Source: Noviherbaspirillum cavernae (GTDB lineage: Bacteria > Pseudomonadota > Gammaproteobacteria > Burkholderiales > Burkholderiaceae_D). Taken from it: a DNA stretch of 64,000 nt. The notes under the pieces are model-generated. The model was not told the origin of the DNA. It ran no database searches and worked only from the letters and a program-made list of their open reading frames with translations. The stretch lies in contig NZ_QYUN01000002.1 of the NCBI RefSeq assembly GCF_003590875.1, positions 744,001-808,000 of the forward strand. The letters run 5' to 3'. This document shows positions 8,218-64,000 of the stretch, piece after piece; within the stretch, counting starts at the first letter, position 1, and each line of letters opens with the position of its first letter. The position numbers and the translations under genes were made by a program.

Positions 8218-8356
8218 GATGGTGTCGGTTCGGCAAAAGCGATGGCGTTGATAAGTTGGACTGCAGACGTGAGCCAATACGTTCGTTGACGTCGGCACAT
8301 TATTTGACACGCATCATGTGCCACGATATCCCTCCCAATGCCGAAATACCGATTGC

Positions 8357-49283: not shown

Positions 49284-49397
49284 ACAAACTCCTTTAAATT
49301 CAATAGGTTATGTTTTTGCGGCAGGTTTGCTGCAAGGTGCACTTCACCGTGCAGCCGGGCCGCACTGGAAATGTTGGAAGGCCAGAGGAGATTCTTG

Positions 49398-49424: not shown

Positions 49425-49452
49425 GTATATGGGCGGCTTTTTGTTTTTTCAA
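49424..49452 (-). promoter_or_regulatory. Sigma-70 promoter of groESL
   Basis: On the minus strand, TTGAAA (49452-49447) and TATACT (49429-49424) are 17 bases apart. Transcription would start within the CIRCE repeat, which is how HrcA represses. No sigma-32 consensus was evident. The promoter lies a few bases from the inferred transposon end. Confidence 0.8.
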
Positions 49453-49470
49453 GGCGGGGTGGTCACGAAC

Positions 49471-49503
49471 AATAAAGTCTGTCAGGCGGGAATAAAGTCT
49501 GTC
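49471..49503. repeat. Tn7-end-like direct repeats (probable TnsB sites)
   Basis: AATAAAGTCTGTC occurs at 49471-49483 and 49491-49503 with a 20-base period. The AATAAAGTCT core is identical to that in the TnsB sites of the Tn7 right end. The interval 49504-49636 up to the tniQ stop has no gene and would be the rest of the transposon end. Confidence 0.65.
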
Positions 49504-49636
49504 TGAACAGGAAAAAAAGAAAATGGTGGAAGATGGAGAGGGATTGATTGTCGAAATGCAACCAAATCTTCCATTCGGAAAGGCTGCCTGCATCGATTGG
49601 GTATGCAGAAATGCGCTTGTCAGAACCAGACGGATA

Positions 49637-51166
49637 TCAAATCCCGGAAAGCCCGCTTGGCAAACGCTTTTTTCTTACTCGGGGGCTAGGTGGAGACTTG
49701 TAACGAGTGTTGCGCACGATTTTGTCGAGGGCAGCTTTTAGCTTGCTTCCTGACATGCGGATTAGTGATTCAACTTCTTCAATAGATGCTTGGTTACAGG
49801 CACAAGCATCGGCCATGGATTGGCCTGATAGAAACGCATGAGCTGCAAGAATGGTAGAGCTAGATCGTCCCAACCCTGGTAAACCTTGTCTCAATAAACC
49901 TATGGACACAGTGCTACTCGGAATTGCCAGTCGTTCTGCGACGTGACTTACCACTCCCTCCTGAGCGACATATTCGTCAAACACTTTCCAGCTTCCCCAA
50001 AAAGCAGCGCCGGGCGCTCTGTCTGGAGAGGGGCATGAGGGGTTGAAGATTTCAGCGACAGCTTGCTGCTCGTCCTCATAGAACAACGCAGCAAGCAGGC
50101 TTAAAGTCGCAGTGGTATAGCGCGTGGCATCGGGGCTGCAAATGCCGTCAATGGATGAGATGTATTTGTGCGGTATCCAATGTACCCGGGGAATCGTCTC
50201 TTCCAACCACCACCGAGGCAGAAGCTCCATCAGACGATTGCCGACGGTTGGGCGAGTTCCTAGCTTTGAAATTCGCAGATCGGCGATTCGCGCCTTTTTG
50301 CCGAGCACGATGCTTGCGGCTCGGCTATCAATAGTAGGTCTTTGCTCGAATATCTCATTCACGATGTAAGCATATCGTTTCAGAAATGCTGTTTGCTCTG
50401 GATGGAATTCCTGCGCTCTTTGTTCAATGACGGCATCGGTGATTTCATGCGGACATTGATCAAAAGCGTCTCGGCGCGGCACGGTTGACAAGAGACTATG
50501 GTGTTCCATGCACCAAAGGGCTCCGGGTAACTGATGCTCACGTCGCCAATAAGAAAAGCCCATTGAGGATAAATCTTCTTGCGCACATTGCCAGCAATAT
50601 CGAGGATGTTTTCCGCCGAGTTTGAACGGTGCATGGCGCTCAACAGCTTCCCTATGCCGTGTCGATTTTGTCCCCGGTTTGTTGAGCTTCAGGCCTTCAA
50701 GGGCATTGAAAAACGGTGTCAGCGTATGTTGATGTATGAGCTGCTCACGCGGCATGTGCAAAATGCTGGCGACATGCTGGAAAAAATCAGCATCCGCTGG
50801 AATGTTTGTATCGAGGCTGCGAGCATGAGCTTCGATGAGAGCTTCGATTTTCTCTTTGGGCCCTATGCAATTGACGGATCGCATACGCCCGCGCCAGCCT
50901 TGTATCACTTCATCAGGTAATGGCCTGCAAATTTCCAGTCGTGGCGTTGTTTCCTTAGACGGCGTAGATGGGGTTCGTTTAGGTAAGCGAACGACGCGCC
51001 CGGTGGAAAATAGTATAGATTTGCTGTCGGCTACTTTGGTTCGTTCTTGTTGAATAAAGGATGAAAATTTCTGATCAAGGGAATCCCTATCTTGAGGAAT
51101 CTTTCTGTGCTCATCAATCAGGCGTTGTAGAGCAGAGGCCGCACTTGAAATGATGTCGTCATCCAT
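49637..51166 (-). CDS. tniQ: TniQ-family transposition target selector
   Basis: A 509-residue protein with the TniQ/TnsD pattern. A zinc-ribbon-like region, RYCWQCAQEDLSSMGFSYWR (about residues 190-210), is followed by REHQLPGALWCMEHHSLLST, where family members show C-P-x-C and C-x-x-H. The basic C-terminus (SPPSPRVRKKRLPSGLSGI) and helical bundles with predicted helix-turn-helix parts (SMADACACNQASIEEVESLI) fit DNA binding. TniQ proteins bring the transposase to its target by contacting TnsC. The N-terminal 90 residues are variable. It starts 5 bases after the XRE gene, so the two are co-transcribed. Confidence 0.8.
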   Translation of the reverse strand: MDDDIISSAASALQRLIDEHRKIPQDRDSLDQKFSSFIQQERTKVADSKSILFSTGRVVRLPKRTPSTPSKETTPRLEICRPLPDEVIQGWRGRMRSVNCIGPKEKIEALIEAHARSLDTNIPADADFFQHVASILHMPREQLIHQHTLTPFFNALEGLKLNKPGTKSTRHREAVERHAPFKLGGKHPRYCWQCAQEDLSSMGFSYWRREHQLPGALWCMEHHSLLSTVPRRDAFDQCPHEITDAVIEQRAQEFHPEQTAFLKRYAYIVNEIFEQRPTIDSRAASIVLGKKARIADLRISKLGTRPTVGNRLMELLPRWWLEETIPRVHWIPHKYISSIDGICSPDATRYTTATLSLLAALFYEDEQQAVAEIFNPSCPSPDRAPGAAFWGSWKVFDEYVAQEGVVSHVAERLAIPSSTVSIGLLRQGLPGLGRSSSTILAAHAFLSGQSMADACACNQASIEEVESLIRMSGSKLKAALDKIVRNTRYKSPPSPRVRKKRLPSGLSGI

Positions 51167-51171
51167 TGATG

Positions 51172-51639
51172 CTACCTCTTTCCATGGGCTTTCATCTGCT
51201 GAGACATCAGAAGGCTGGTATCAAAGTTTTCAGGCAGTGTCCCAAGCTCCATTTGAATCAAAACGTCTCGAATCATCCGAAAAAGCACGCGACGGGATTC
51301 GGCGCTGAGATGACCATCGGGTTCAGCTTCTGCACACATTTCCACCCACTCAAAGGCACGACGTTCAACACGATCTTGTTGTTCGGATCGAAGTTCACCG
51401 GTATATGCCTTTGACGCCGATATGAGATAGACCAAGTCCACGCCAGCAGCACCAATTGCGGAAAGATAACGAGTCGTCGGCGCCGAAGCCTCCGATTCGT
51501 ATTGAAGTTGCGCCAAACGACCGACGCCGCCGATTTGGGCCAACTCGACTTGATTTAGACCCAAGCGTTTCCGTTCCTCTTTCAGTCTCAGCCCGAGGCC
51601 TGGCGGGATACCGGGTGGTGTAGATGTTTGTGTAGTCAT
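51172..51639 (-). CDS. XRE-family repressor of the transposon
   Basis: A 155-residue regulator with an N-terminal Cro/C1 helix-turn-helix (LGLRLKEERKRLGLNQVELA, then QLQYESEASAPTTRYLSAIG; about residues 15-60). The C-terminal 90 residues are helical and acidic, without a protease motif, so it is not LexA-like. ATG 51639 has no Shine-Dalgarno sequence. A -35 TTGTTA (51675-51670) and -10 TACAAT (51652-51647), 17 bases apart, put the transcript start at or next to the ATG, suggesting a leaderless message. It precedes tniQ and faces the gp16-like gene across nested inverted repeats. Confidence 0.8.
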   Translation of the reverse strand: MTTQTSTPPGIPPGLGLRLKEERKRLGLNQVELAQIGGVGRLAQLQYESEASAPTTRYLSAIGAAGVDLVYLISASKAYTGELRSEQQDRVERRAFEWVEMCAEAEPDGHLSAESRRVLFRMIRDVLIQMELGTLPENFDTSLLMSQQMKAHGKR

Positions 51640-51653
51640 GTTATTGATTGTAT

Positions 51654-51705
51654 GTACAGGTATTGAATTTAACAAGTATGTGTTAAATTGTCTAAATATC
51701 TGTAC
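51654..51705. promoter_or_regulatory. Nested inverted repeats in the divergent promoter
   Basis: AATTTAACA-6-TGTTAAATT (51666-51674 and 51681-51689) is a perfect 9-bp inverted repeat. Around it GTACAG (51654-51659) and CTGTAC (51700-51705) form a second, nearly concentric pair. The inner repeat overlaps the -35 (TTGTTA) of the repressor promoter. Together they look like operators of the divergent XRE and gp16-like regulators. Confidence 0.6.
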
Positions 51706-51720
51706 TTTCGGATAAAATCC

Positions 51721-51981
51721 ATGTCGGAGACCCTGCTAGATACCGCTATTGCGAAGAAGTTATTCGAGGCATCGGGCATCTCTGTGGCCGAATGGGCGAG
51801 GGTGCGCGGGTTTTCTACAGGTTTGGTTTACCAAGTCCTGGAAGGACGGCGCAAATGTCTGAGAGGGCAAAGTCACCAGATTGCCATCGCTCTAGGATTG
51901 AAGCGAGGTATGACTTTGGAAATGGACGAGCTATCTCGTCGACTCATTGCAAACGTGACGGTCGCTAGCACCGAGAAATAG
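51721..51981 (+). CDS. BcepMu gp16-like small DNA-binding protein
   Basis: An 86-residue protein that matches the phage-associated BcepMu gp16 family: ISVAEWARVRGFSTGLVYQV followed by LEGRRKCLRGQSHQIAIALG (residues about 20-60), a helix-turn-helix with the conserved Glu-Gly-Arg. In BcepMu-type Mu-like phages the corresponding gene sits at the regulatory switch next to the transposition genes. It is transcribed divergently from the XRE repressor and towards tnsABC. ATG 51721 is preferred to the TTG at 51688. The function is inferred as transcription control of transposition. Confidence 0.75.
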   Translation: MSETLLDTAIAKKLFEASGISVAEWARVRGFSTGLVYQVLEGRRKCLRGQSHQIAIALGLKRGMTLEMDELSRRLIANVTVASTEK

Positions 51982-52119
51982 GACTTCTGTAGCGCAAAAC
52001 AAAAAGCCGAACCCCTCATTGCTGAAAGATTCGGCTTGCCCGCTAAACGCGAGAGACTTCTTGGTAGCACTTGAAGTATCTCCTGTTTTCCCGGGCAAGT
52101 CAAAGGTCCTGTGTCGCTT

Positions 52120-52148
52120 ATACATTCATAAATCCCATATGGATGTAT
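52120..52148. promoter_or_regulatory. Imperfect inverted repeat upstream of tnsA
   Basis: ATACATTCATA (52120-52130) and TATGGATGTAT (52138-52148) form 11-bp arms with one mismatch. It lies 98 bases before the tnsA start. It may be an operator or a transposase-related site. A weaker hairpin (AAGCCGAA / TTCGGCTT, 52004-52037) lies further left. Confidence 0.4.
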
Positions 52149-52185
52149 CAAATTAATTGCTTTTGACTATCTGCGGGAGAACCAT

Positions 52186-52239
52186 ATGCTAGACCCTCAC
52201 CTCGTTTCCACATTCGTCCGGCTAATCCTGATGTCGTGA
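52186..52239 (+). CDS. Possible 17-codon leader peptide before tnsA
   Basis: A short frame starts at ATG 52186, behind a good GGGAG (52175-52179), and ends TGA at 52237-52239, five to eight bases before the tnsA start (GTG 52244 or ATG 52247). It encodes MLDPHLVSTFVRLILMS. Because tnsA itself has only a weak ribosome site, translation may be coupled through this peptide. Whether it is real needs expression data. Confidence 0.4.
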   Translation: MLDPHLVSTFVRLILMS

Positions 52240-52246
52240 GGCCGTG

Positions 52247-53230
52247 ATGGGAAACTCAAGAGCTGTTTCTCGGCTGAAAACCCTGTACCAACGCCAGCAG
52301 AATCCTTCGTGGGACGCGTCTTATGTGCCGGGGATTCTCGCCACCCCTAAGGAGGCGCCGTCCATTTCGCGTGCCTATACCCTGACGCCATCCAAACTGG
52401 CTGGTCGCGAAGTCCATTTATTGTCGACAGCAGAGCGTGACGCTGCCTTATTGGGGCTTTATCACCCAGCCATCATTGGCTTGCAAGAGCAGCGCATGCT
52501 GTCTCCGGGACCCACCACACATCCGCTTTGGACCTTTCCGAACATTGATCGCAGTGCGTTGCCTCCACTAAAAGGAGTGATTGATGTAGCCGAGCGCCTC
52601 AATGTTCTGGATGTATTGCCTCGGATTGTGGTTCCTCATCCAGAGCGAACTGGTGAGAGGATGCCGCTCATCTATCCATGGTGTGGAGATTTGTTGTGGG
52701 CTATTGTGCGTCCGGACGGGCGAACCGATTGTATCAACTGGTCCATCAAGGACAAACGACAAAATTTCATGCGGCCGGGGCCAACCCGTTTTGGCAAATT
52801 GCGCCCCTCAGACTTTATTCGCAAGGTGCTGGCGCGGCACGAGGTCGAAGCTGCTTACTATGCGAATGCCAATATCCGAACAGTGCAGATTGCAGGTGAA
52901 GAGATTGATTCACACGTTGCTGCCAACCTGAGACAGCTCTTTCTTCATCATCGTCGACAGTTATTCATCACAGATAACCAGCGAGCGGAAATTCTCCATC
53001 GCTTCCAGTCAGCCCTTGCGCATGGGATCACCCCGGCCGAAGTAATTACCGTGCTTGCAGAGCGAGGGCGTTATTCGGTGGATCAATGCCGATCTGCTTT
53101 TTACCAAGCGATTTGGGAAAATAAACTAAAGGTCGATTTATTTCAACCAATCCTGATCAATTGCCCAATGCGTCCCGAGATTGAGGATGTCACTGTCAAG
53201 TATGCCAAGTGGTTTGATGTCACACCATGA
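52247..53230 (+). CDS. tnsA: TnsA-like transposon endonuclease
   Basis: A 327-residue protein of the heteromeric transposase endonuclease type. The likely catalytic restriction-fold residues are Glu in YHPAIIGLQEQRM (about residue 80), Asp in YPWCGDLLWAIVRPDG and Lys in DCINWSIKDKRQNFMRPG, followed by the conserved RHEVEAAYYANANIRTVQI. TnsA cuts the 5' ends of the transposon, allowing cut-and-paste movement. The stop overlaps the tnsB start (ATGATG), so it is translationally coupled. Start 52247 or 52244. Confidence 0.8.
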   Translation: MGNSRAVSRLKTLYQRQQNPSWDASYVPGILATPKEAPSISRAYTLTPSKLAGREVHLLSTAERDAALLGLYHPAIIGLQEQRMLSPGPTTHPLWTFPNIDRSALPPLKGVIDVAERLNVLDVLPRIVVPHPERTGERMPLIYPWCGDLLWAIVRPDGRTDCINWSIKDKRQNFMRPGPTRFGKLRPSDFIRKVLARHEVEAAYYANANIRTVQIAGEEIDSHVAANLRQLFLHHRRQLFITDNQRAEILHRFQSALAHGITPAEVITVLAERGRYSVDQCRSAFYQAIWENKLKVDLFQPILINCPMRPEIEDVTVKYAKWFDVTP

Positions 53231-55254
53231 TGATCGGGACGCAAATCATCGCTCCTGAAGGATGTGGCCCATTGGTCAAAGACGTCGTCTATCACCTCTT
53301 GCATAACGGTGCTCAAAGCGGTCGAATTTTGATGGTGCATTTTGATGTCGGCAAAGATGTCGGCATGCCCAAAGCCTCTCTGTTTTCGATAGCAAGGCGC
53401 CTCTTTGAGGAAGGAGTTGCCACAAGCCGAATCGTTCCAGTTGCTCAGCAATTAGCGCTTCCACCATGGTTGAGGCAGTTCGAGGGCGTGAATCTGGAGG
53501 AACAGGATGGGCTTCGTGCCAAGGCAAAGCTTTCCAATAGAGAGCGAGTGGAAAATCGGCTTTTGCACATCACTTCCGCTGTACGCATCATCGAAAGCAT
53601 TTTGTCCGACCAAGATCCGCAAGCGGAAATCAATCGCCGCGCAGCTCAATGTAATCCGCCGCAACATCCATCGCGATTTCGTCTATGGCTGCTGACATAT
53701 CTTTGCTTTGGTCGGGACATGTGGGCACTGCTTCCCCCTTTCCATCGAAGTGGCCATTGGAATCGAGAGCGTTATCCGGATCGCAAATTTGGCGCTCCTT
53801 CTCTAGCCCATGGAAAGCACTATGGCCATGGCAGCAGTAGGGAAATGACAGAGGCTTGCATCAAGAGTTATCGAAAGCGCGCTCAACTCGGGAAGCCCAT
53901 GGCCACCATTTATGCCGAAGCTATGGTGGAGGATTTTCATTGCCGAGTCATTACGCATGAATCCGGCATGAAGTCCTACGTGCAGTTTCAAGGAGAACCG
54001 TTTCCTACCTATTGGCAATTTCGATATCGGGTCGTGAAAGCGTTTGGCAAAGAGATGATCCAGAAACTACGTTATGGATCAGTGCGATACAGAACACGGA
54101 TTGCAGAATCCAGAGGACGGTTTTCCGAAGAGGTCTCCAACTTGATGGAGCGGGTTGAAGCCGACGGTTTCTATGTGAAGGAGCGGCCCAAAGGTTATGT
54201 AGAAGGGACGAATCTGCCTCCCTTGTGCGTTGTCGTTAGCAGGGATGTGTTGTCTGGAATGAAGTTGGGAATTGGATTCTCGTTTGGCGCAGAAAGGGCA
54301 ACGGCTTATCGAATGATGCTGTTCTGTATGGCGATACCGAAGAACTATTTTTGTCGGTTGTTCGGTGTGCCGTTCGTGCCAGGTGAGTGGCCTAACCAAG
54401 GATTACCAGGGCATTTCGGAATTGACCGTGGCCCATGGGCACGAAAGGAATTGATCGAGGCAATGGAGAAGCGTTTCCCGATTCGGGATATGGCGCCTTC
54501 ATGGTCAGGGCAGTCAAAAGCTACTGTGGAATCCTCGCACCCCAAAGATTTGAAATTCGAAGGGAAACCAACTTATGTGCAAAGCGAGCTGACTCCGGTT
54601 GAATTGGCAAAGCGGGAAATCATACGGCTGATTCAATTCAATAATGGCGCTGACATGGAAGCACGCTTCGATCCAGACAGAGACTTGGCGTACGTGGCGC
54701 CAAGTCCTGTCGGACTATGGAACTATTACGACGAACGGTTCCGGAATGATGGGCAGCCCATGCGGGTCGACGAAGCGATCCGGACATTTTTGACGCCAAT
54801 CGAATTTCTGGTGCGAGAAGATGGCGTGTATTTGGATGGACGTCGATATTCTTCAGAAGAGTTCGAAGCTACAGGAACATTGGAGCGTTGCGGAATTTCA
54901 CAAGGTATGCACTCTCGTGTTCAGGGGTATGTGCTGGATATGTGCGTGCGGCATGTATGGATTGAGGTCGATGGAAGATTGCTAGAACTGGATGCCAAGC
55001 TTCGGATACGCGGCGATGAAGAAACACTATGGATGTCGATTGCGGAACTGGATCAATGGGCCGAGGCACGTCGTGCAGTCAATTCTGCATACCGCGCGCA
55101 TCAGCATGCCAATACATCAGATTATCGACAGCGTTTTGAACAGAGCACGGGTAAATCTTGGGAAGCGGGTCAGCGAAAATCCGGAAAGCCAAAGCGTGCT
55201 AGCAATTTTAATGCTGCAGGGACGAGTTCTTCTGGCAAGCGGAGATCTGCATGA
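53227..55254 (+). CDS. tnsB: TnsB-like DDE transposase
   Basis: A 675-residue transposase of the retroviral integrase fold (Mu/TnsB type), which cuts and joins 3' ends. The DDE residues are likely the Asp in RVEADGFYVKERPKG (about residue 310), the Asp in LPGHFGIDRGPWARKELIEA (about 400) and the Glu in KATVESSHPKDLKFEG (about 435). The N-terminal 290 residues hold DNA-binding helices. After the core comes a Mu C-terminal-like barrel with SPVGLWNYYDERFR and YLDGRRYSSEEFEATG. The basic, Ser-rich tail (KSGKPKRASNFNAAGTSSSG) may contact TnsC. It overlaps tnsA and tnsC by 4 bases each. Confidence 0.85.
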   Translation: MMIGTQIIAPEGCGPLVKDVVYHLLHNGAQSGRILMVHFDVGKDVGMPKASLFSIARRLFEEGVATSRIVPVAQQLALPPWLRQFEGVNLEEQDGLRAKAKLSNRERVENRLLHITSAVRIIESILSDQDPQAEINRRAAQCNPPQHPSRFRLWLLTYLCFGRDMWALLPPFHRSGHWNRERYPDRKFGAPSLAHGKHYGHGSSREMTEACIKSYRKRAQLGKPMATIYAEAMVEDFHCRVITHESGMKSYVQFQGEPFPTYWQFRYRVVKAFGKEMIQKLRYGSVRYRTRIAESRGRFSEEVSNLMERVEADGFYVKERPKGYVEGTNLPPLCVVVSRDVLSGMKLGIGFSFGAERATAYRMMLFCMAIPKNYFCRLFGVPFVPGEWPNQGLPGHFGIDRGPWARKELIEAMEKRFPIRDMAPSWSGQSKATVESSHPKDLKFEGKPTYVQSELTPVELAKREIIRLIQFNNGADMEARFDPDRDLAYVAPSPVGLWNYYDERFRNDGQPMRVDEAIRTFLTPIEFLVREDGVYLDGRRYSSEEFEATGTLERCGISQGMHSRVQGYVLDMCVRHVWIEVDGRLLELDAKLRIRGDEETLWMSIAELDQWAEARRAVNSAYRAHQHANTSDYRQRFEQSTGKSWEAGQRKSGKPKRASNFNAAGTSSSGKRRSA

Positions 55255-56489
55255 AAAATCAATTCCCTTCCTATTGGGCCAATCGTTTCGAGGCTCTGCT
55301 TGATACGGAAGCGCTCAAGCAGCGTGCTATGGTCACAGCTCCTCCGTTGACCAATCTCGCTTCGCTCCCCACGGAATTGGCATGCCATCAGCTTGAGGCA
55401 GCACTGGCAACCGTGTTTTATCCGACGACACAATGCGTGTCCATCTTGAAACGTTTAATCGGTGTGGCATATGCCCATTGTCTTGCTCAATATCCGGACG
55501 GGAAAACCTTTCTCCAAGGTTTGTATGCGCCTGATGCTCCGTTTCCTGATTTCTCTCCCCCCATTTGTTTGACGGGATTGGCCGGTACCGGCAAAACAGA
55601 ATTGATCAAGGCATTCTGCCGAATATATGGAAACGATGGCCAGGTAATGGTTGACGAAAGCCATTCACCATTCCCTATCAAAGGTCCATGGATGATCACG
55701 GTGCACGCCCGTAGCTCCCCAATGGATATATTCAGTTCCCTTATTCAAACGAAGGGACGGCTTGCCGACCTCATCATAAAATGCCGACGTTTGGCCTATC
55801 GTGACGGGGTCCCATTTTTGATTGGGGATGAGTTCCAGTTTACTTCAGGCAGTGAAAGCGCAAATACGCGTGTTGCTCAGATGTTGCTATCACTCGGTTA
55901 TATCGGACTCCCTTTTGTATTTGTTGGAAATTACAGTTTGATTCGGCGACTCCAACGTCGCCCAGGTGAAGAGCAACAGCGCTTGCTGGCAAGCCCGATC
56001 ATAGTATTTCCTGATTCCGCAGAAAGTCTGGATTGGCAAGAAACATTGAAAGTACAGTGTGACGTAGCTCCAGACATTTTAGTATTTGATCCAATTCGGG
56101 ATGCAGAAGCATTGCATGCTTATTCCGCAGGGCGGAAGCGAGCCATGGCAAAGTTATTGATATTGGCTTTTAGTAGAGAGCACCCGCATGGAGGAAAAGT
56201 GACTCTTGGAGCGATACATCGTGCTTACCATGCGAGTGAATATGCGGTCTATCGTGAAGAGACAGAAATTTTGACAACACAGGCGATTCAAAATCGTCCG
56301 AACGAGAAAAGGAAGGATTTATGGTGCCCGATTCCATTACCACGTAACACCGCAACGACATTTTTGGATTCGTCGATTGAGGCCAGTGCAGAAAGGATGG
56401 CAGAGGCTGAGTTGACGGCAGCCTTGACATACGAAGAGCGCCAACATCTATCCGAGATAAAACGAAATATCTTAAAGGGGGAATGGTAA
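55251..56489 (+). CDS. tnsC: TnsC-like AAA+ transposition regulator
   Basis: A 412-residue ATPase of the TnsC/TniB class that links target selectors to the transposase. Walker A is ICLTGLAGTGKTELIKAFCR (about residue 105) and Walker B is VPFLIGDEFQFTSGS (about residue 190); a sensor region lies in LPFVFVGNYSLIRRL. The C-terminal third (KRAMAKLLILAFSREHPHGG, then VTLGAIHRAYHASEYAVYRE) has the helical lid and a putative target- or TniQ-binding end. The ATG overlaps the tnsB stop. It is the last gene of the tnsABC operon. Confidence 0.85.
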   Translation: MKNQFPSYWANRFEALLDTEALKQRAMVTAPPLTNLASLPTELACHQLEAALATVFYPTTQCVSILKRLIGVAYAHCLAQYPDGKTFLQGLYAPDAPFPDFSPPICLTGLAGTGKTELIKAFCRIYGNDGQVMVDESHSPFPIKGPWMITVHARSSPMDIFSSLIQTKGRLADLIIKCRRLAYRDGVPFLIGDEFQFTSGSESANTRVAQMLLSLGYIGLPFVFVGNYSLIRRLQRRPGEEQQRLLASPIIVFPDSAESLDWQETLKVQCDVAPDILVFDPIRDAEALHAYSAGRKRAMAKLLILAFSREHPHGGKVTLGAIHRAYHASEYAVYREETEILTTQAIQNRPNEKRKDLWCPIPLPRNTATTFLDSSIEASAERMAEAELTAALTYEERQHLSEIKRNILKGEW

Positions 56490-56732
56490 ATCCGGTCAGG
56501 TCGTATCGCTTCGCAATAAAGTCACCGCTGCTGATTTGACGCAGAATGCAAACCTTTATAAGGATGCGCTGTAGCTCACCTGAATGGATTTTTTCCCCTT
56601 GGGTCATTTAGCTCGCTTAAGCGCAAGTCAAGCCATCATGTGCGGACTCAGGTGCAATTGATTAGGAGTGCCGGCTCAAGTTGACTGAATTAAAAGCGCT
56701 TTGCTGGTCATGACCACGACCGTTACATTGAC
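56490..56732. other. Transposon right-side region without a gene
   Basis: Between tnsC and the IS3 element there is no protein-like frame. One AATAAAGTCA (56515-56524) is present, in the same orientation as the left-end repeats. The inverted copies expected at a Tn7-type right end were not found. Confidence 0.45.
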
Positions 56733-56803
56733 CGGTAATCCCCCCGAAAAAGAAGCGGCTTTGAAAGTAGAATTTTCTCCAATCAGAAGCGAGGAAGTTT
56801 TGC

Positions 56804-57070
56804 ATGAAAAAGTCACGTTTTTCGGAAAATCAGATCATCGGCATTCTCAAGCAGGCAGAAGCCGGCACGCCGGTGCCGGAGCTGTGCCGCGAGCACGGCA
56901 TGAGTTCGGCACTGTTTTATCGCTGGCGCAGCAAATACGGCGGCATGGACGCCTCGATGATGGCGTGCATGAAGGAACTCGAAGAAGAGAGCCGCCGTCT
57001 GAAGAAGATGTATGCAGAAGAACGCCTGAAGGCAGAAATCATCGCCGAGGCCATGCAAAAAAAATGGTAG
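56804..57070 (+). CDS. IS3-family transposase OrfA
   Basis: The 88-residue helix-turn-helix subunit begins [20 protein letters not shown] and contains [20 protein letters not shown] (residues about 20-40), followed by a leucine-zipper-like helix ([20 protein letters not shown]). It ends in MQKKW at a TAG within the frameshift window. Together with OrfB it makes the active OrfAB protein. Confidence 0.9.
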
Positions 57071-57097
57071 CGCCATCTCGACGACGCGAGATGGCGC
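57057..57097 (+). other. Programmed -1 frameshift signal of the IS3 element
   Basis: Eight A in a row (57057-57064) form the slippery site just before the OrfA stop. An 11-bp hairpin follows (GCGCCATCTCG at 57070-57080, complement at 57087-57097, 6-base loop). This is the standard arrangement for -1 frameshifting that fuses OrfA and OrfB. Confidence 0.8.
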
Positions 57098-57891
57098 AAT
57101 GGGTCGTACAAGCGAAGGCTGTCAGCATTCGAGCAGCATACCAGGCGTTCGGTATCAGCCAGACCCGCTATCGTTATCAGGCCAAGCTGTCGTCAGAGAA
57201 CAGTGCGATTGCCGATTGGCTGATCCGGTTGACGACCAACCAGCGCAACTGGGGATTCGGGCTGTGCTTTCTGTATCTGCGCAACGTCAAGGGTTACGGC
57301 TGGAATCACAAGCGCGTGTACCGGATTTGCCGGGCGCTCGAACTGAACCTGCGCATCAAGCCGAAGAAGCGCCTGGTGCGCGAGAAGCCAGAACCACTGG
57401 CCGAACCCAGCGCCGTCAATCAGGTCTGGTCGATGGACTTCATGCATGACCAGCTGTTGGACGGTCGCAGTATCCGGTTGTTCAACGTGATCGATGACTT
57501 CAATCGGGAAGGTTTGGGCATCGAAATCGATTTCTTGCTACCGTCCGAGCGCGTTATTCGGACGCTGGAGCGGATCATGGAATGGCGAGGCAGACCCGAC
57601 AGGATACGTTGCGACAACGGGCCGGAATACGTCAGTGCGGCGCTGGCGACATGGACGCAACGACGAGGGATTCATCTCGAATTCATCCAGCCCGGCAAGC
57701 CGCAGCAGAATGCGTACATCGAGCGTTACAACCGCACCGTCCGCTACGACTGGCTGGCGCACTACCTGTTCGACAGCATCGAAGAAGTCCAGGACTTCGC
57801 TACCCGATGGCTATGGACCTATAATCACGAACGCCCTAACATGGCCATTGGCGGCATCACGCCGAAACAGAAACTGGCCTTGACTGCATAG
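57064..57891 (+). CDS. IS3-family transposase OrfB (DDE)
   Basis: A 275-residue integrase-fold transposase. The DDE residues are in [20 protein letters not shown] (first Asp), [18 protein letters not shown] (second Asp) and [20 protein letters not shown] (Glu). The N-terminal [16 protein letters not shown] is the usual IS3 domain. The frame is minus one relative to OrfA; an ATG at 57064 lies in the slippery window. It seems intact, so the element may still be active. Confidence 0.9.
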
Positions 57892-57930
57892 TTTCTACTA
57901 TCAGGCCGCTTCAAAAATGGGGGGATTACC

Positions 57931-58234
57931 GACTGATCAGCCAATTACCAAGACGGTTGCAGAGATAATGCTGCTGTACATGGTTCGAACGATCTATCTT
58001 CCGGCGGTTCTGAAGCTGTGTCCAAACACCGATACGCCGGAACGTCTTGCTGCGTTAATCGACTTCACTTTTAATCTTGGCATAGGGAATCTGCGAGCAT
58101 CGACACTTCGACGGAAAGTCAATATAGGAGATCGGGATGCAGCTGGGATTGAGATGATGAAGTGGGTAAGCGGTGGTGGCAAGGTGTTACGCGGACTCGT
58201 TCTTCGACGCACGGCAGAACGGCAACTTTTGTAG
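57931..58234 (+). pseudogene. Phage-type lysozyme (GH24), N-terminus lost to IS3
   Basis: The frame beyond the IS3 right end (ITKTVAEIMLLYMVRTIYLP and then LKLCPNTDTPERLAALIDFT, NLGIGNLRASTLRRKVN, KVLRGLVLRRTAERQLL) matches the C-terminal half of phage T4-type lysozymes of glycoside hydrolase family 24. The catalytic Glu and the Asp/Thr region that lie in the N-terminal half are missing. No N-terminal part was found left of the IS, so the loss involved more than a simple insertion. Confidence 0.75.
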
Positions 58235-58277
58235 GTGCGTATTAGCATTAGGGAAATAATGGCGGCATAATTGCCCT

Positions 58278-60098
58278 ATGAAAATATTAAACCTTGCCGG
58301 CTTGATGCCTTTGCGAGTTAGCTTCCTCGATCGCTTTTTCTTCTTCCGTGGCGGTGCGTATAATGCCGCGATTGCGCGGATGCTCCTAGCCATTTCCCTC
58401 TGGCTTTCCATCAAAGAAGCCGGGGATGCTTATTTATGGAATTTTTATGTAGAGAGTTATAAATCCTGGGGGTGGGTTCCTAAAGGCCTCGCCAAAATAT
58501 TTGTTGCCCCCCCAAACCAAGACTTCGTCATCAATCTGTTTCATCTTTCGCAATTCTTCTGCATCACCATGTTCCTGGGGGTGTTTACCAGGACATCTGC
58601 TGTAATCGCTGCGGTCTCAGCCACGCTCTACGCTAGTTTAATAGCGTCTTTTGGGCCGTATTGGTCGCACGGTTTTAATGTTCAACTCTTGGCGGCACTG
58701 TCCTTCATGTTTGGTCGGTCAGGTGATGTGCTATCGGTTGACGCGGTAGTGCGCCGGTTTCGCGCACTACCTTCCCCACTCAAAAAGCACGACGGTGAAT
58801 ATTGGTGGCCGGTCCTCTTTGCCGAGCTATCCACCCATATGTTCATGTTCGGCGCGTTTTATCAGAAATTCACGCTGGGCAATGGGGTCTGGTGGGCGTG
58901 GTCGGACAACTTGCGCAACTCCCTCGCGGTTTCCTGGGGGCTCGCGCGGTTCAATCCGCCTGAGCTCGTTCTATGGGTGGCCAACAATCCGTGGCTCTAC
59001 AAAACTGCCGGCACCTTGCAACTTATCGCCCAGTTCTCGACCATCTTTTGCCTGTTCCTAGTGCGGCATCCGGTGCTGCGCCTAGTGATTGGTGGGATGT
59101 TCTTTTTCCTTGAGATTGTCGGTTTGACCCGATTGTTTGAGTTCTGGCATCCGTTTTGGGTGCCACTATGTCTTTTGTCAGTTGATTGGGAATGGCTTTA
59201 CGGGAAAATCACAGGGAAGATCGGGAGGCCTGTATCGACACAACGAGGCTATCTCGTTATGGGTGCTTTCTTGATGGCAGTGCAAAAGCGCGCATTAGAC
59301 GTGGTTGACAATATCGGTTCGCGCTACCGGCTTGCAGTCTACGCGTTCATGGCTCTTTTTTTTGGGTATTACGCTGCCAATATCATTTGGAAACTTGGTG
59401 AGAAGCACCTGAATTACCCGTTTAGCTCAATGGCATTCTTCTCTGAGAATCGTGCGTTGGCCCCATATTCCAAACCGAACTATTTCCCAATATACCGTGG
59501 ATGGATAGAGGTTGAGACTGTAGATGGAAAGAAGTTGGAGCCGTCAATGATCCCCTCTCCTGTAGTAAATCCGATTCTTATCTCATCAAGGGATGCGTCC
59601 GCTCAACAGCAGCTTCATGTGTCCGGCAAGCTCTTGCTGAAAAATGCCTTTTGGATGAACTCACCTCAACTTAGCTCAAGCAGTGAAATTGGAAGTTATC
59701 GCACCTATTCGCAGATCGTAGCCGTTCCGCCAAGGCCGCGCCCGGCGCTTCCGATGGTTGTGCTTCATTCGGGTTTAACGTCCATAAGTGACAAGCTGGG
59801 ATTCAGGGGAGTTACACCGTCATTGACATGGGATGAGGCATCAAAACAATACTTCATCACCGTTGAAGCCTTCGGCTTCCGAGATCCATCGTTCAAGATA
59901 CTGGCACGGAAAAATGTTCGCGAGGAACCGCAGGAGGTCGACCCCAAGGAGTTGGCTGGTGCGTGGCGAGGCAACCGATTCTTTATCAAGCACACGGGTG
60001 ATGGAGCATTCTTATACACTCTCATTGAGGTCGCGGATAAAGCGCTCGGCGTGACCGAAACCTACGCTGGTCCGGAAAATTTTCAGAGTTACCGATGA
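58278..60098 (+). CDS. HTTM-like multipass membrane protein
   Basis: A 606-residue protein with several membrane helices in its first 360 residues (for example AAIARMLLAISLWLSI, INLFHLSQFFCITMFLGVF and SAVIAAVSATLYASLIASF) and a soluble C-terminal 230 residues. The region HMFMFGAFYQKFTLGNGVWW, followed by AWSDNLRNS, resembles the HTTM domain of vitamin K-dependent gamma-carboxylase-like proteins, where a Lys follows Tyr-Gln. The pairing with a DCC oxidoreductase (4-base overlap) is typical of bacterial HTTM genes. The activity and the role of the tail are unknown. Its position among mobile elements suggests an acquired gene. Confidence 0.7.
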   Translation: MKILNLAGLMPLRVSFLDRFFFFRGGAYNAAIARMLLAISLWLSIKEAGDAYLWNFYVESYKSWGWVPKGLAKIFVAPPNQDFVINLFHLSQFFCITMFLGVFTRTSAVIAAVSATLYASLIASFGPYWSHGFNVQLLAALSFMFGRSGDVLSVDAVVRRFRALPSPLKKHDGEYWWPVLFAELSTHMFMFGAFYQKFTLGNGVWWAWSDNLRNSLAVSWGLARFNPPELVLWVANNPWLYKTAGTLQLIAQFSTIFCLFLVRHPVLRLVIGGMFFFLEIVGLTRLFEFWHPFWVPLCLLSVDWEWLYGKITGKIGRPVSTQRGYLVMGAFLMAVQKRALDVVDNIGSRYRLAVYAFMALFFGYYAANIIWKLGEKHLNYPFSSMAFFSENRALAPYSKPNYFPIYRGWIEVETVDGKKLEPSMIPSPVVNPILISSRDASAQQQLHVSGKLLLKNAFWMNSPQLSSSSEIGSYRTYSQIVAVPPRPRPALPMVVLHSGLTSISDKLGFRGVTPSLTWDEASKQYFITVEAFGFRDPSFKILARKNVREEPQEVDPKELAGAWRGNRFFIKHTGDGAFLYTLIEVADKALGVTETYAGPENFQSYR

Positions 60099-60469
60099 GA
60101 GAAGGCAATTACATCCTATATGACGGCGATTGCCCATTCTGTTCCAACTTCGTCAAGCTGGTGCGACTTAAGAAGGCAGTAGGCCCGGTTACGCTTCTCA
60201 ACATGAGAGAAAACACGGACTTAGCTTCGCACTATAGGCGAAAGGGTTACAACCTTGATCAGGGCATGCTTCTGCATCTCGGCGGCGAGGACTATTGGGG
60301 AGCTGATTGCATGAATCGTATCGCACTGCTCAGCTCGGATAGCGATGTCTTCAACAAATTGAATGCGGTAGTTTTTAGGCATAAGCGCCTGTCAAAACTT
60401 ATTTATCCGTTATTGCGCGCAGGTCGAAACGTGACGTTGTGGCTGATGGGGCGCGGCAGAATAGCGTGA
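60095..60469 (+). CDS. DCC1-like thiol-disulfide oxidoreductase (DUF393)
   Basis: The 124-residue thioredoxin-fold protein has the family motif ILYDGDCPFCSNFVKLVR (residues about 7-24; active Cys pair CPFC). It ends LLRAGRNVTLWLMGRG, like other DUF393 proteins. The ATG overlaps the HTTM stop (ATGA), so translation is coupled. It probably handles a disulfide of the partner or its substrate. A short gene-poor stretch follows. Confidence 0.85.
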   Translation: MREGNYILYDGDCPFCSNFVKLVRLKKAVGPVTLLNMRENTDLASHYRRKGYNLDQGMLLHLGGEDYWGADCMNRIALLSSDSDVFNKLNAVVFRHKRLSKLIYPLLRAGRNVTLWLMGRGRIA

Positions 60470-60547
60470 AACCGGTGGTTCGAGGAAATGACAGCTTTTT
60501 TGCCAGCATTTCTGTAGAGCCCGCATGAAATAAGGGCGTTTGGTATA

Positions 60548-60567
60548 TTCGAATCCCCCTCTCGCCA
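60548..60567 (+). pseudogene. tRNA 3'-end relic (possible att site)
   Basis: TTCGAATCCCCCTCTCGCCA has the T-loop, T-stem 3' strand and CCA of a tRNA, probably of the Ser class. The 90 bases upstream do not fold into a tRNA and the T-stem partner (TGGTA) does not pair, so only a fragment is left. Such tRNA 3' ends are typical attachment-site scars of integrated elements. Confidence 0.4.
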
Positions 60568-60576
60568 AGCGTTTAA

Positions 60577-60599
60577 AAGGCCTCCAGACTGGAGGCCTT
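60577..60599 (+). terminator. Hairpin after the tRNA relic
   Basis: AAGGCCTCCAG and CTGGAGGCCTT pair perfectly (11 bp) with a very short loop, ending TT-G-TTATTT. It has the usual form of a terminator just after a tRNA gene and could still act on the DCC gene transcript. Confidence 0.6.
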
Positions 60600-60871
60600 G
60601 TTATTTGTGCCAAGGCTACTGCAAGGGCCTCCCCATCTTGATCAACCGTAAGCGGTTGTTTCTCTGCACGTATGCCGTGATTCGCTACTACGCGGGAAGT
60701 TGACATGCCATCAGTATTGCCATTTTTGCCTGCTGCCCGCGACGTGAGCCTGTTGCGTACGCGGGTTGATGGATCTTCGCGGACCGGCCACCCGGGCATA
60801 TCACATAGCAAGACGCGCGCGCCAGTGGGCCGTGCTCCCAAGGAGCGTGCGTACGTGGCTCGGGATCGGGC

Positions 60872-61855
60872 TTATCTCAGGAATCTAAGGCGCATTACCT
60901 TGTGCGCGATCTCCGCCGGAAAGCGCGTGAGTGCATCCACGATTTGCCGCCTTAGCGCAGCATTGCATGCTGCGCCGTCCAGATCCAGGGAGTGAATGCG
61001 CAGTCGCGCCGCGTACTCGGCCAGCAGTGCGCGATCGGCGCGATAGCCGTCTTCGCGCAGCAGCTTGCATCCCAAGAGCATGGCGCGTGCCAGAACGTCG
61101 TTTTTGCAAATGTTCATGTCTCGCACGTGGCTGAGGATCAGTTCAGCCCAAGTGCTGCAGCCGGCGCGCAGTATCTTCCCGGCCGCCTTGACGAACGCCG
61201 ATTGCTCCGACAGGCGGGCGGCATCGTCCAGGCTTGCACCCGCGCCGCATGCCAAGTCGATGACGATGATCAGTCCGCTCAATTCATCGCGTACGCAAGG
61301 CGGTGTACTGTCGCGGCTCGCGGCTTCGGCCACGATCGCCGCAGCCAGCAAGGGGGTATAGTGCGCGCGCGGCTGCGCTTGAATTGCAAGCTTCAGGCCC
61401 TCGGCGTACAAGCGATTCAGCACGGTGTTGTGCTGCAGGCGATCCTCCAACGCCATTTGGGCGCTGTATTCCGCATGCCAGAATGCTTCGATCGCGTCGT
61501 CAGCCAGGACCAATGCCTCGTGTTCCAGCTTCGCCTTCTAGTGTGTGTGCGCTTCGCGGCGACGCAGGATGCCGGAGATCGTGTGGCACTCCGCATCGAT
61601 TTTCGGGTTGGCGACGCGAAGCGCTGGCAAAATAAGATTGAGATATTGCCGCGCTCCCTGATCATCCTGGATGTGCAGCTTGTTGCGCGCTGCGGCGGCA
61701 CATATCATGCCCATCCAGTGTTCCGAATGATCGCCGGGCGCGTCATCCATGGTGCGTTCCAGAATGCCCAGCGCATCATAGTATTTACCTGCCCGGGTAC
61801 GAAATTCGGCTGCAGAGAGAAGGGCTCCTGCGGATGGTGTGTCAGGTGATTGCAT
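60872..61855 (-). pseudogene. Gene split by an in-frame amber codon
   Basis: Two open segments, 61541-61855 and 60872-61537, lie in one frame and are separated only by TAG (61538-61540). Translated through, they give about 327 residues: FRTRAGKYYDALGILERTMD, then REAHTH-stop-KAKLEHEALVLADDA, AYSAQMALED-like helices and RADRALLAEYAARLRIHSLD. It is helical, with a TPR-like feel at the N-terminus (an inference). I do not recognise the family. The start is ATG 61855. It may be inactivated, or the amber may be read through. Confidence 0.5.
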
Positions 61856-61909
61856 ATGTTCTCCATGGGCGACTGTGGCTGCTATGACGTGAGTGGCCGT
61901 GGCGCCTCT

Positions 61910-62974
61910 TTACCCGTGTTGAGTGGCTTGAATCGAGGCGCCGGTTGCACCGGAAACGGCAAACCAGGCAAATGTGGGTGATGCCGCTGATGTCGGCTGC
62001 TGGCGCTGTGCGAAGCGCCACGGCAGCAAGTCCGAGACATCGGCGCTATCCGGACGCTGCGGCAGTTCGGTCAGCACCGCATTCAGGTACATCCATGGCT
62101 CGACATCGCATGCCCGGTATGTCAGCATCAGGCTGTAGATGACGACGCTGGCCTTGGCGCCGGCGACCGTGTCGCTGAACAACCAATTCTTCCTTCCGGT
62201 TGTAAATGGACGGATGTCGCGTTCGAGGACGTTGTTGTCTATCGGCACCGTGCCGTCGTCGGCATAGCGGACCAAGTAGTTCTATTGGTTACGCGCATAG
62301 GCGACCGCCTCGCCCAGCAGGCTCTTGGGCAGAACCCGACCGGCCTGCTCGTCGAGCCATGTCTTGAATGCCGCCAGCACCGGCACGCTATGCTGCTGGC
62401 GCAGCGAATAGGTGTGGCCGACGCGCGTCTGCACGGCCGGCAGTGGGCCTCTTGCGATGGCTTCGACCTGGTACAGCCGGCCGATGAATTCCAATGCCTG
62501 CTTCGCGCGGCCCTCTGCCTTCTGCACCTTGGTTGCCTCGTCGAATTTGCGGCGCGCGTGCGCGACACACCCGAAGTGCGTGACGCCCTTGAGCGTGCGT
62601 CACGCCTGGTAGCCGTCGGTCACCAGCCTGCCCTGGTAGCCGCGCAGGAACGGCTGCGGATGCTCTTGCCCGCGTCCCGACTGATAGTCGAACAGGACTA
62701 CCGGCTCGGCACTCGCCTCGGCGCTGCGGTAGACCCACATGTACGACGTGCTCTGCGCGCTCTTGCCTTCCTCGTGCAATACCTGGACCGTGGTCTCGTC
62801 GCCGTGAATGAGCGGCTGCGCCAGCAGCACGCGATGCATGGCGTCGACCAGGCGCTGCAGATGACGCTGGCTGGCACCGATCATCCAGTGCCCGAGCGTG
62901 CCGCGGCACAGCTCAATGCCGGAGCGCGCCAGCACCGCTTCCACATGGGCGATTTTCACGACACGCTGATACAC
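61910..62974 (-). pseudogene. IS66-family transposase (TnpC) relic
   Basis: The C-terminal 355 residues of an IS66 TnpC in one frame with two stops: TGA at 62600 (after GYQA) and TAG at 62282 (after YARNQ). At both places the family has Trp. Recognisable parts are [80 protein letters not shown] and [20 protein letters not shown]. The N-terminal third and the helper genes tnpA and tnpB are missing. It is inactive. Confidence 0.85.
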
Positions 62975-63165
62975 TGCCGAGACACGGAGAGCACGGTTGA
63001 TACTTGTCGCCGCGCGTTTGACATAGGAGCCATGGACGATGGCGAACTCGCTGAGTTATCCGTCTTGTCCTCCACCGCTTTCTCGTATTGAGGTCTTCGA
63101 CAACCGAAAGCTCAGCTTCGGATTGGTCCCGGAAAACCAAGCAAATCACGTATCGGAATCGCACC

Positions 63166-63711
63166 TTATGGCCTGGGTTGTACGGGGATTGCAGGCATTG
63201 CGCCCTGCATTAACTGTATCGCCGTGAACTTCCACTCCCGGTAAGTGTTTTTTCCTGCGAATTCCTGAAACGGGATGGGGAAATTGCCGATCTTGATCGG
63301 CACGGCATTCGACAGGCTGTACACCCCGGCGATACCTGTGCCGTCCGGCGCGGCGATCGTTCCCCATTCTTCCTTGCCGGTCAGGGGATCGGCATACAGC
63401 TTGCGCAGATGCCGCCGCGGGTTCGGATAGCGCGGATCCTTCAGCAGGTCCTGCAAGGATTGCGGATAGGTGGTCTTTCCTGTTGGCGTCGCATTGGCAT
63501 AGCTGGTCAGGGCGTTGCGGAATTCCATGCCGATCGACAAGAGTTCTTCTTCGGCCGCCCGCCGCTGCAGAATCACTCCCACTTGCACCGACGCGGTGGA
63601 GACAAGACCCATCACGGCGACCAGGATCAGCACACCCAGATAGGTAAAGCCGTTCGCGCGCATACGATCATGGCCGATGCGACTCATTCTGAAATTGGCA
63701 CACGGCTTCAC
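63166..63711 (-). CDS. Type II secretion-type pseudopilin
   Basis: A 181-residue protein with a class III (prepilin) signal. A 21-residue leader ends MRANG, and cleavage before FTYLGVLILVAVMGLVSTAS gives the N-terminal helix of a pseudopilin. EEELLSIGMEFRNALTSYAN, then YPQSLQDLLKDPRYPNPRRH and ADPLTGKEEWGTIAAPDG, are typical of the GspG-like proteins found in Burkholderiales. It starts at GTG 63711 with AGGAG 6 bases upstream, directly behind the stop of the next pseudopilin. Confidence 0.8.
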   Translation of the reverse strand: MKPCANFRMSRIGHDRMRANGFTYLGVLILVAVMGLVSTASVQVGVILQRRAAEEELLSIGMEFRNALTSYANATPTGKTTYPQSLQDLLKDPRYPNPRRHLRKLYADPLTGKEEWGTIAAPDGTGIAGVYSLSNAVPIKIGNFPIPFQEFAGKNTYREWKFTAIQLMQGAMPAIPVQPRP

Positions 63712-63719
63712 GGCGACTC

Positions 63720-64000
63720 CTACAATGCGGCAAACGGCGTGCCATCCCGCTTGCTCCCCGACGCGCCGCTACGTAGATCAAAAACATTGCCCTTGGCAGC
63801 ATCGTCCGGCGGAACGATGACCCAAGTGGCTGTGCTCTCCGTGATCGGATCGACGGGCAGGGATTTCAGATATTTCTTGTCGATCAGCTCGCTCAACGAC
63901 TCGGGGTAGCGGCCGGTATCCCCATAGAATTTGTCGATGGTTTCCCGCGTCAAGCGCAAGTTGTCTATCAGGACGGTTTCCCTGGCGGTATCGATGCTCT
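63720..64000 (-). CDS. Pseudopilin (GspG-like), partial, runs off the window
   Basis: The frame is open to the window edge and covers the last 93 residues: IDTARETVLIDNLRLTRETI, DKFYGDTGRYPESLSELIDK, LKSLPVDPITESTATWVIVP, GTPFAAL at the end. The ESLSELI and VDPIT segments match GspG-type pseudopilins. The N-terminal prepilin helix lies beyond 64000. The stop (TAG) overlaps the ribosome site of the following pseudopilin. Confidence 0.75.
   Translation of the reverse strand, partial: SIDTARETVLIDNLRLTRETIDKFYGDTGRYPESLSELIDKKYLKSLPVDPITESTATWVIVPPDDAAKGNVFDLRSGASGSKRDGTPFAAL

Follow-up and report, generated by a model that had tools for sequence, protein, structure and literature searches.

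Can a Tn7-like transposon be governed by a switch of the kind that temperate phages use? The question is raised by a locus within a 64,000-nucleotide stretch of the Noviherbaspirillum cavernae genome (RefSeq assembly GCF_003590875.1, contig NZ_QYUN01000002.1, positions 744,001 to 808,000 of the forward strand; hereafter the window, in whose numbering coordinates are given unless a contig is named). Here a Tn7-like core of tniQ, tnsA, tnsB and tnsC carries, between tniQ and tnsABC, a divergent pair of small helix-turn-helix (HTH) genes, xre and gp16. The arrangement is conserved in related elements and gp16 is homologous to a phage ner-like gene, which makes it rather probable that a Tn7-like lineage has adopted a switch of the temperate-phage type, in which a CI/Cro-like repressor/Ner pair would gate tnsABC.

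A divergent regulator pair within a Tn7-like core

From left to right, the locus consists of groEL-groES (minus strand, identified from their translations), the left transposon end, tniQ and xre on the minus strand, a short gap, gp16 and tnsA-tnsB-tnsC on the plus strand, and an IS3-family insertion sequence (Table 1). Of the features by which Tn7-like elements are recognized, a TnsB-family DDE transposase, an adjacent TnsC ATPase, a TniQ-family selector and inverted ends with repeats are present. The TniQ protein matches PF06527 above the Pfam cut-off (E 1.3e-17, residues 80-226), and an orthologue of tniQ1 is found in the related locus L009 by profile match. TnsB matches Tn7 TnsB (PDB 7pik, E 2e-9), and its residues D313, D400 and E435, which are invariant in a seven-row alignment, are likely, from their spacing, to be the catalytic DDE residues. 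In TnsC the invariant G112-G114-K115 and D193-E194 can be read as the Walker motifs. TnsA has no Pfam match and owes its name to gene order and conservation.

The XRE protein of the window alone gives a weak HTH_3 match that lies under the Pfam cut-off (E 0.0017), and HTH_3 is matched at E<=0.01 by seven of the eight XRE proteins found among the relatives described below. The best solved relative of a four-row XRE family profile is the P22 C2 repressor (E 2.5e-7), and the 434 repressor is also matched (E 0.0017). SOS-type self-cleavage is not indicated, because S24 peptidase is not among the families matched at E<=0.01 by the eight proteins. In the predicted structure of XRE, helices form an HTH bundle at the N terminus and also make up the C-terminal half; the mean predicted local distance difference test (pLDDT) score is 74.8. 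The window gp16 matches TIGR04111 (BcepMu_gp16) above its curated cut-off (E 1.6e-22) and phrog_925 (E 6.2e-20). Its predicted model is poor (mean pLDDT 68.7), and it finds no match better than E 0.08 among solved structures.

The order of the genes is that of the initial annotation, in which xre leads tniQ and gp16 leads tnsABC, and the likeness of the XRE family profile to P22 C2 and the TIGR04111 match of gp16 bear out the families. It had further placed the two regulators facing each other across 80 bp; the gap is indeed of that size (81 bp between start codons), but the genes stand back to back and are transcribed divergently.

Table 1. Features of the Tn7-like locus in window coordinates.
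Feature	Position	Strand	Description
Left transposon end	49460..49503	+	terminus TGGTC... at ~49460; direct copies of AATAAAGTCTGTC at 49471 and 49491
tniQ1	49637..51166	-	target-selector family, 509 amino acids (aa); about 80 residues precede the TniQ domain
xre	51172..51639	-	HTH, repressor-like, 155 aa; 5-bp gap to tniQ1, same strand
Shared regulatory region	51640..51720		81 bp; leftward promoter-like sites and an inverted repeat
gp16	51721..51981	+	BcepMu gp16-family/Ner-like HTH protein, 86 aa; upstream of tnsABC, same strand
gp16-tnsA gap	51982..52243	+	262 bp; features from consensus scan alone
tnsA	52244..53230	+	328 aa; conserved over six aligned rows; in the right place in relatives
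tnsB transposase	53227..55254	+	675 aa
tnsC AAA+ ATPase	55251..56489	+	412 aa as read; directly after tnsB
IS3-family insertion sequence	56733..57931	+	NF033516 E 2.3e-61; 27-nt inverted repeats, 78% complementary; downstream of tnsC
Probable cargo side in window	57917..64000		lysozyme fragment, 606-aa protein, DCC1-like protein, start of a pilin/type II secretion system (T2SS)-like cluster

The pair is a trait of one transposon lineage

The TnsB relatives comprise four loci from genome contigs, two of 93 plasmid records (all but two of which cover less than 80% of the query) and matches at E<=1e-60 in seven overlapping genome sets (6/399, 2/369, 1/43, 4/61, 3/398, 18/249 and 3/187, the window's own genome being among the matches in the sets with 6/399, 2/369 and 3/398). 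A short match in G1298 (L073) was left out, and four weak TnsB matches (27-29% identity) served as outgroups only. When profiles of every core gene were run against the resulting 35 loci, the window among them, both xre and gp16 were found in eight (the window, L009, L011, L012, L042, L046, L092 and L093), gp16 without a detected xre in three (L041, L051 and L052) and neither gene in 21; the remaining three (L010, L045 and L086) are not judgeable, as their contigs end before the tniQ-tnsA gap. Wherever gp16 is present it adjoins tnsA on the same strand (11/11), and all eleven proteins, the window's included, match TIGR04111 at E<=0.01, the curated cut-off having been compared for the window gp16 alone. 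In all eight loci with both genes xre is divergent from gp16, with start codons 81, 81, 84, 86, 92, 93 and 93 bp apart and, in L012, 50 bp apart. Seven of them have one or more tniQ genes on the same strand as xre and beyond it; in the stretch covered for L046, the eighth, none was seen.

In the TnsB tree the window falls into an eight-row clade with L009, L010, L011, L012, L042, L092 and L093 (support 100/98), and all seven judgeable rows of this clade carry both genes. A wider group of 15 rows contains all 11 gp16 carriers together with two loci that lack it and two that are not judgeable, with a support of 71/65 (85 in a quick tree). OUT_L005 and OUT_L008 were omitted from the careful tree and all four outgroups were kept in the quick one, and only the eight-row clade is firm. 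In the sister group, which counts 20 rows (18 of a single genus and two from Pseudomonas plasmids), neither gene occurs in any of the 19 judgeable members. The absence of the regulators from related elements, which the initial annotation had named as telling against its idea, is thus the rule in the sister group (19/19) but not in the window's own clade, where both are present (7/7). Because the sister group lacks the pair and the window's clade carries both genes, the pair is a lineage trait and does not extend to Tn7-like elements at large.

The gp16 family takes its name from phages, and a lysozyme fragment lies at 57917-58234, which might suggest that the regulators derive from an unrelated prophage or are chance neighbours of the core. 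This is scarcely credible given that the genes occupy the same place in eight (both) and eleven (gp16) TnsB-relative loci, and that none of 200 label shuffles on the TnsB tree was as clustered as the regulator labels. An unrelated prophage lying beside the transposon is rejected, since relatives keep the pair at the same place. TnsB identity ranges from 36 to 64% within the eight-row clade and falls to 30% with L046. Across the eight elements with both genes the pairwise identities correlate between TnsB and gp16 (Mantel p 0.023), TnsB and XRE (0.026) and gp16 and XRE (0.022), which is in keeping with co-inheritance among rows that are few and related.

The sister group (L013, L014, L055, L056, L076-L085 and L087-L091) has the same TnsA/B/C/TniQ machinery, with a TnsB that is 37.8% (L013) or 35.0% (L014) identical to that of the window and a tniQ that is likewise divergent from tnsABC. 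It differs in that neither xre nor gp16 stands between tniQ and tnsA, where 365-874 bp separate the ORF (open reading frame) ends. Translations of this gap (L013:13435-14045, L014:13357-14036 and others) share pieces across loci, which suggests conserved non-coding DNA and perhaps a different mode of control.

Several further observations concern individual relatives. A protein of 182-196 aa, membrane-like by eye, is encoded between xre and tniQ2 in L092 (11812-12444), L093 (11819-12412) and L042 (12897-13481); at its N terminus it is similar to the N-terminal region of tniQ1, in L009 with E 1e-4 and more weakly in the window with E 0.007, which may point to a fused remnant. In two of the loci with gp16 only, an ORF that looks HTH-like by eye lies between both tniQ genes (L051:13458-13835 and L052:5722-6183). 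Broken tnsB copies occur in L091, in two pieces (8296-8715 and 10660-12276), and in G1306 (L070/L089), with one internal TGA.

Counterparts in transposable phages

Compared with phage records, the window gp16 gives 59 matches at E 1e-3, 56 of which are named Pseudomonas, and the top-ranked one is 54.7% identical. Seven records were inspected (JBD25, Komp_PAO1_1, PhiKM, Rashabar, Fc02, Sirocco and AH14b). A transposase lies downstream on the gp16 strand in JBD25, Komp_PAO1_1, PhiKM, Rashabar and Fc02 (5/7), and an annotated repressor is divergent from gp16 in Fc02 (118 bp), Sirocco (84 bp) and Rashabar (473 bp). The Rashabar gene is annotated as a Ner-like antirepressor, and Sirocco is a P2-like phage whose gp16-family gene is annotated as cox-like. 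A functional parallel is offered by Fc02, in which the protein at the ner-like locus is 46% identical to the window gp16 over 50 aa; judged from its position, the Fc02 gp16-family gene appears to be the published ner-like gene. A repressor/ner switch has been described for this phage from RNA-seq, and, according to that report, when repression is lifted transcription begins at the ner-like gene and continues into the transposase genes (PMC9936078).

The B3-type transposable phages Fc02, JBD25 and Rashabar resemble the transposon in having a small gp16-family HTH gene upstream of a DDE transposase and its partner on the same strand, and in Fc02 and Rashabar a divergent annotated repressor stands next to gp16 as xre does here. 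Unlike these phages, the transposon encodes TnsA and TniQ, has tniQ behind the repressor gene and tnsABC directly after gp16, and shows no virion gene: head, tail and portal genes found no match in the ORFs scanned, a subset of the element, which yielded a truncated lysozyme only. In addition, no TnsB relative was found in phages at E 1e-5. Two parts of a repressor/Ner arrangement are present, a Ner-like homologue upstream of the transposase genes on their strand and an adjacent, divergent CI/RepC-like gene. The phage-like resemblance noted in the initial annotation thus stands for the gene family and, in the case of Fc02, for the layout, and what the pair does in the transposon can be proposed from this likeness.

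How the switch might work

The pair is read as a repressor/Ner switch for tnsABC because gp16 is homologous to a phage ner-like gene. XRE would take the role of CI or RepC and gp16 that of Cro or Ner, and the two would be transcribed divergently from the shared region of about 80 bp, in which their putative operators would lie. While the element is settled, xre and the tniQ gene just behind it would both be expressed, and XRE would hold the gp16-tnsABC transcript down. Upon entry into a cell without XRE, or upon loss of repression, gp16 and TnsABC would be expressed; gp16 would then silence xre-tniQ, and transposition would follow in a limited burst that uses TniQ made earlier. A selector made in advance, or a leftover selector that limits the burst, would both fit such a scheme. 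The initial annotation had transposition and target choice switched together. The position of tniQ speaks against this: it lies 5 bp behind xre on the same strand and, if the pair works as in phages, would be part of the repressor (maintenance) transcript, with tnsABC on the opposite one, so that opposite switching is expected.

A bolder extension, which we hold only tentatively, is that the lineage lives as a temperate phage without particles: tnsABC would be silent when the element is settled, a burst would follow in a naive cell, the resident repressor would confer immunity to elements of the same specificity, and the selector would be kept ready on the repressor transcript.

Several observations weigh against the proposed switch. 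The shared region contains an inverted repeat, AATTTAACA-N6-TGTTAAATT, at 51666-51689 (9 bp with a 6-bp spacer; p=0.02 against dinucleotide shuffles), but the shuffle p of the best repeat is 0.40 in L009, 0.05 in L011, 0.11 in L012, 0.98 in L042, 0.23 in L092, 0.03 in L093 and 0.23 in L046. The repeats of L011 and L093 differ from that of the window, the other five regions do no better than chance, and no palindrome common to the eight shared regions was found. Furthermore, L041, L051 and L052 have gp16 without a detected xre, and L043 and L044, within the wider group, have neither gene. On the phage side, four of the seven records have no annotated repressor divergent from gp16: that of PhiKM (Bcepmuvirus) has gp16 preceded by genes of its own strand, and in JBD25, Komp_PAO1_1 and AH14b no neighbour of gp16 is annotated as a repressor. 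No transposase was found in the stretch read of AH14b and Sirocco. Between the XRE profile and the Fc02 repressor, similarity is confined to the HTH part (hhalign probability 84, 82 columns), and in a poorly resolved gp16 tree with six phage proteins a single origin of the transposon copies appears in 0% of 200 bootstrap trees. Finally, the window copy may itself be inactive.

The gap between gp16 and tnsA belongs to the same list. A consensus scan finds there a promoter-like site on the plus strand (52163-52190) and a hairpin that is terminator-like on the minus strand (52004-52037), and tnsABC may therefore not depend on the gp16 promoter, with partial independence being possible. This gap would suit a reading in which the two HTH genes regulate each other and have no important effect on transposition, tnsABC and tniQ having promoters of their own; so would the sister group, which keeps tniQ and tnsABC divergent across 365-874 bp without either gene. 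Such a reading is nevertheless improbable, since the pair keeps its place between tniQ and tnsA in elements whose TnsB proteins are 36-64% identical (down to 30% with L046). A 14-nt exact inverted repeat links this gap (51996-52009) to the host side of the left junction (49434-49447), which may be chance.

Known control of Tn7-like elements

Control of Tn7-like elements by a repressor that they carry, an XRE protein in particular, is already known from CRISPR-associated transposons (CASTs). I-F3a and I-F3b CASTs have independently co-opted the Xre proteins RtaC and RtbC, with zygotic induction (PMC11406308). VpxR, from a Vibrio parahaemolyticus CAST, is an activator at its own promoter and a repressor of VPA1392, a divergent gene of unknown function, and in the native Vibrio host the atypical array is affected only when VpxR is overproduced (PMC12150760). 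The I-F3 CASTs are thus like the window element in being Tn7-like and in having their own CI-like XRE, which is proposed to restrain transposition after establishment (PMC11406308, PMC12150760), and unlike it in that their XRE acts on an atypical guide array and on the divergent VPA1392, whereas no cas gene was seen among the ORFs scanned here. The V-K CASTs with CvkR share a dedicated repressor within a Tn7-like element (PMC11406308, PMC9938897), but CvkR is of the MerR type and the element has CRISPR parts.

Given these precedents, XRE could be the only regulator, as in the I-F3 CASTs: a CI-like protein that regulates its own expression and represses tnsABC and perhaps also tniQ, with gp16 as an accessory DNA-binding protein such as a transpososome or directionality factor. 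The behaviour of VpxR at its own promoter and at the divergent gene is in line with this reading (PMC12150760), as are the three loci in which gp16 stands without a detected xre. The same can be said of the cox-like label of the Sirocco gene. Proteins of the cox-like class can also have an architectural role on DNA. We regard this explanation as unlikely, though as the strongest of the alternatives, since gp16 lies directly before tnsA in all eleven loci that carry it and the Fc02 homologue is the first gene of an induced operon in the published data (PMC9936078).

The initial annotation took the arrangement for an undescribed control mode. This does not hold for XRE control, which the I-F3 CASTs exemplify; it does hold, within the open-licence literature covered (mostly titles and the openings of abstracts), for the partner, as no report joining gp16/Ner with a Tn7-like element was found there. 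The word xre does not occur in the main texts of surveys of Tn7 selectors and cargo (PMC10293859, PMC8649781). The new part is therefore the phage-type second regulator, gp16/Ner.

State of the window copy

The initial annotation had called the core genes complete, with recognisable motifs. The motifs are seen in TniQ, TnsB and TnsC, but completeness is not borne out by the 3' end of tnsC or by the missing second tniQ. In the window tnsC stops at 56489, and a tail like that of relatives continues in another frame at about 56476-56574 (the L009 protein ends in ANMFRDQI); a sequencing error at this frame break is possible. A second tniQ follows tniQ1 in L009, L011 and L012 and is missing here. 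Elsewhere in the genome two other TniQ-family genes occur (C2:932554-932961 and C2:2144593-2145000), neither of which matches the tniQ2 profile.

That the window holds a decayed remnant, with a switch that has nothing left to control, is possible without being the likelier state, and it is compatible with a switch at the level of the lineage, the two being judged separately. Decay is suggested by the tnsC frame break, the absence of a second tniQ, the IS3 element beside tnsC and target flanks that agree at four of five bases. Against it, the reading frames of tniQ, xre, gp16, tnsA and tnsB remain open, and the element retains its two ends.

Probable extent of the element, ends and cargo

The left end is placed by comparison with congeners: 14 of them match the region upstream of groES, and the limit of the match falls at 49453-49461 for 13 and at 49294 for the other, while the host groES promoter region extends to about 49459. 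The two copies of AATAAAGTCTGTC at this end are likely TnsB sites. Genome-wide, at no more than one mismatch, AATAAAGTCTGTC occurs four times, as the left pair and as an inverted pair at C2:825840 (one mismatch) and C2:825962, which correspond to window coordinates 81840 and 81962 and so lie beyond the window; a control pattern gave no forward and one reverse match. The two ends read inward alike (TGGTCACGAACAATAAAG on the left, TGATCGAAAACAATAAAG on the right), and the L009 contig has the same repeats at corresponding places, with the pair occurring twice. On that contig a second left end abuts the right end of the L009 element (G1640:C20:35623-35694 and 59503-59535), a tandem-like arrangement that bears on immunity. 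In the window's genome the inverted repeats and the probable right terminus lie within C2:825840-825985 (window coordinates 81840-81985), about 75 bp from the 3' end of a seven-transmembrane (7TM) histidine kinase gene (C2:826060). An extent of some 32.5 kb, to window coordinate ~81985, is thus probable for the element. An earlier idea that the right end had been lost through the IS3 event, suggested by the lack of an inverted repeat in 56,000-62,000, was overturned by the genome-wide repeat match.

That the two ends are partners is likely but unproven. The flanks, CGGGG and GGGGG, are alike at four of five bases; the right flank has no DNA match in ten congener stretches upstream of groES, and the kinase protein of the flank is unmatched in 18; in bins of 2 kb counted from 48,500, the G+C content is 0.49-0.53 for the first six, where the tns module lies, and 0.57-0.62 for nine of the next 11. 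Reservations about the pairing stem from these three facts, and a comparison of congener synteny gave no match that would prove an empty site.

The cargo status of the DNA after tnsC depends on this pairing. The initial annotation had seen no tnsE, cas or cargo gene. For tnsE this agrees with the absence of a match in the ORFs scanned (10 in the window, 18 in the interior and two in the flanks, a part of those in the 32 kb), and for cas with the absence of a match in the same ORFs (Pfam and PADLOC) and in the two Rfam matches of the window, the search for CRISPR repeats extending to 58280. It probably fails for cargo, because matching inverted end repeats lie 32.5 kb apart. Between the ends are found the IS3 element, the truncated lysozyme gene (57917-58234) and DCC1-like, pilin, secretin, GspE/F/G-like and RHS genes. 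The pilin/secretin/GspE-F-G-like cluster (L107:14667-19824 and L108:450-4817) is followed by the RHS genes and is richer in G+C than the tns module; the pilin/T2SS-like and RHS genes would be an unusual cargo, provided that the ends belong together. The 606-aa protein (58278-60098) has a paralogue that is 69% identical (C2:3488024-3489832) and is unmatched in 14 congeners. No obvious short target repeat flanks the IS3 element (56720-57943), and a rearrangement at this place is therefore possible.

Implications

Beyond the I-F3 and V-K CASTs, the control of quiescence in a settled host and of activation on transfer seems, on our reading of PMC11406308, to be little studied in Tn7-like elements without CRISPR parts. 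In the present lineage the candidate control genes sit in one block of about 0.8 kb, and for one of them transcription data have been published on a phage homologue. Elements of this lineage are a compact system for testing whether bistability of the lysogeny type and immunity through a repressor are used by transposons, and for asking why the target selector is carried on the repressor strand.

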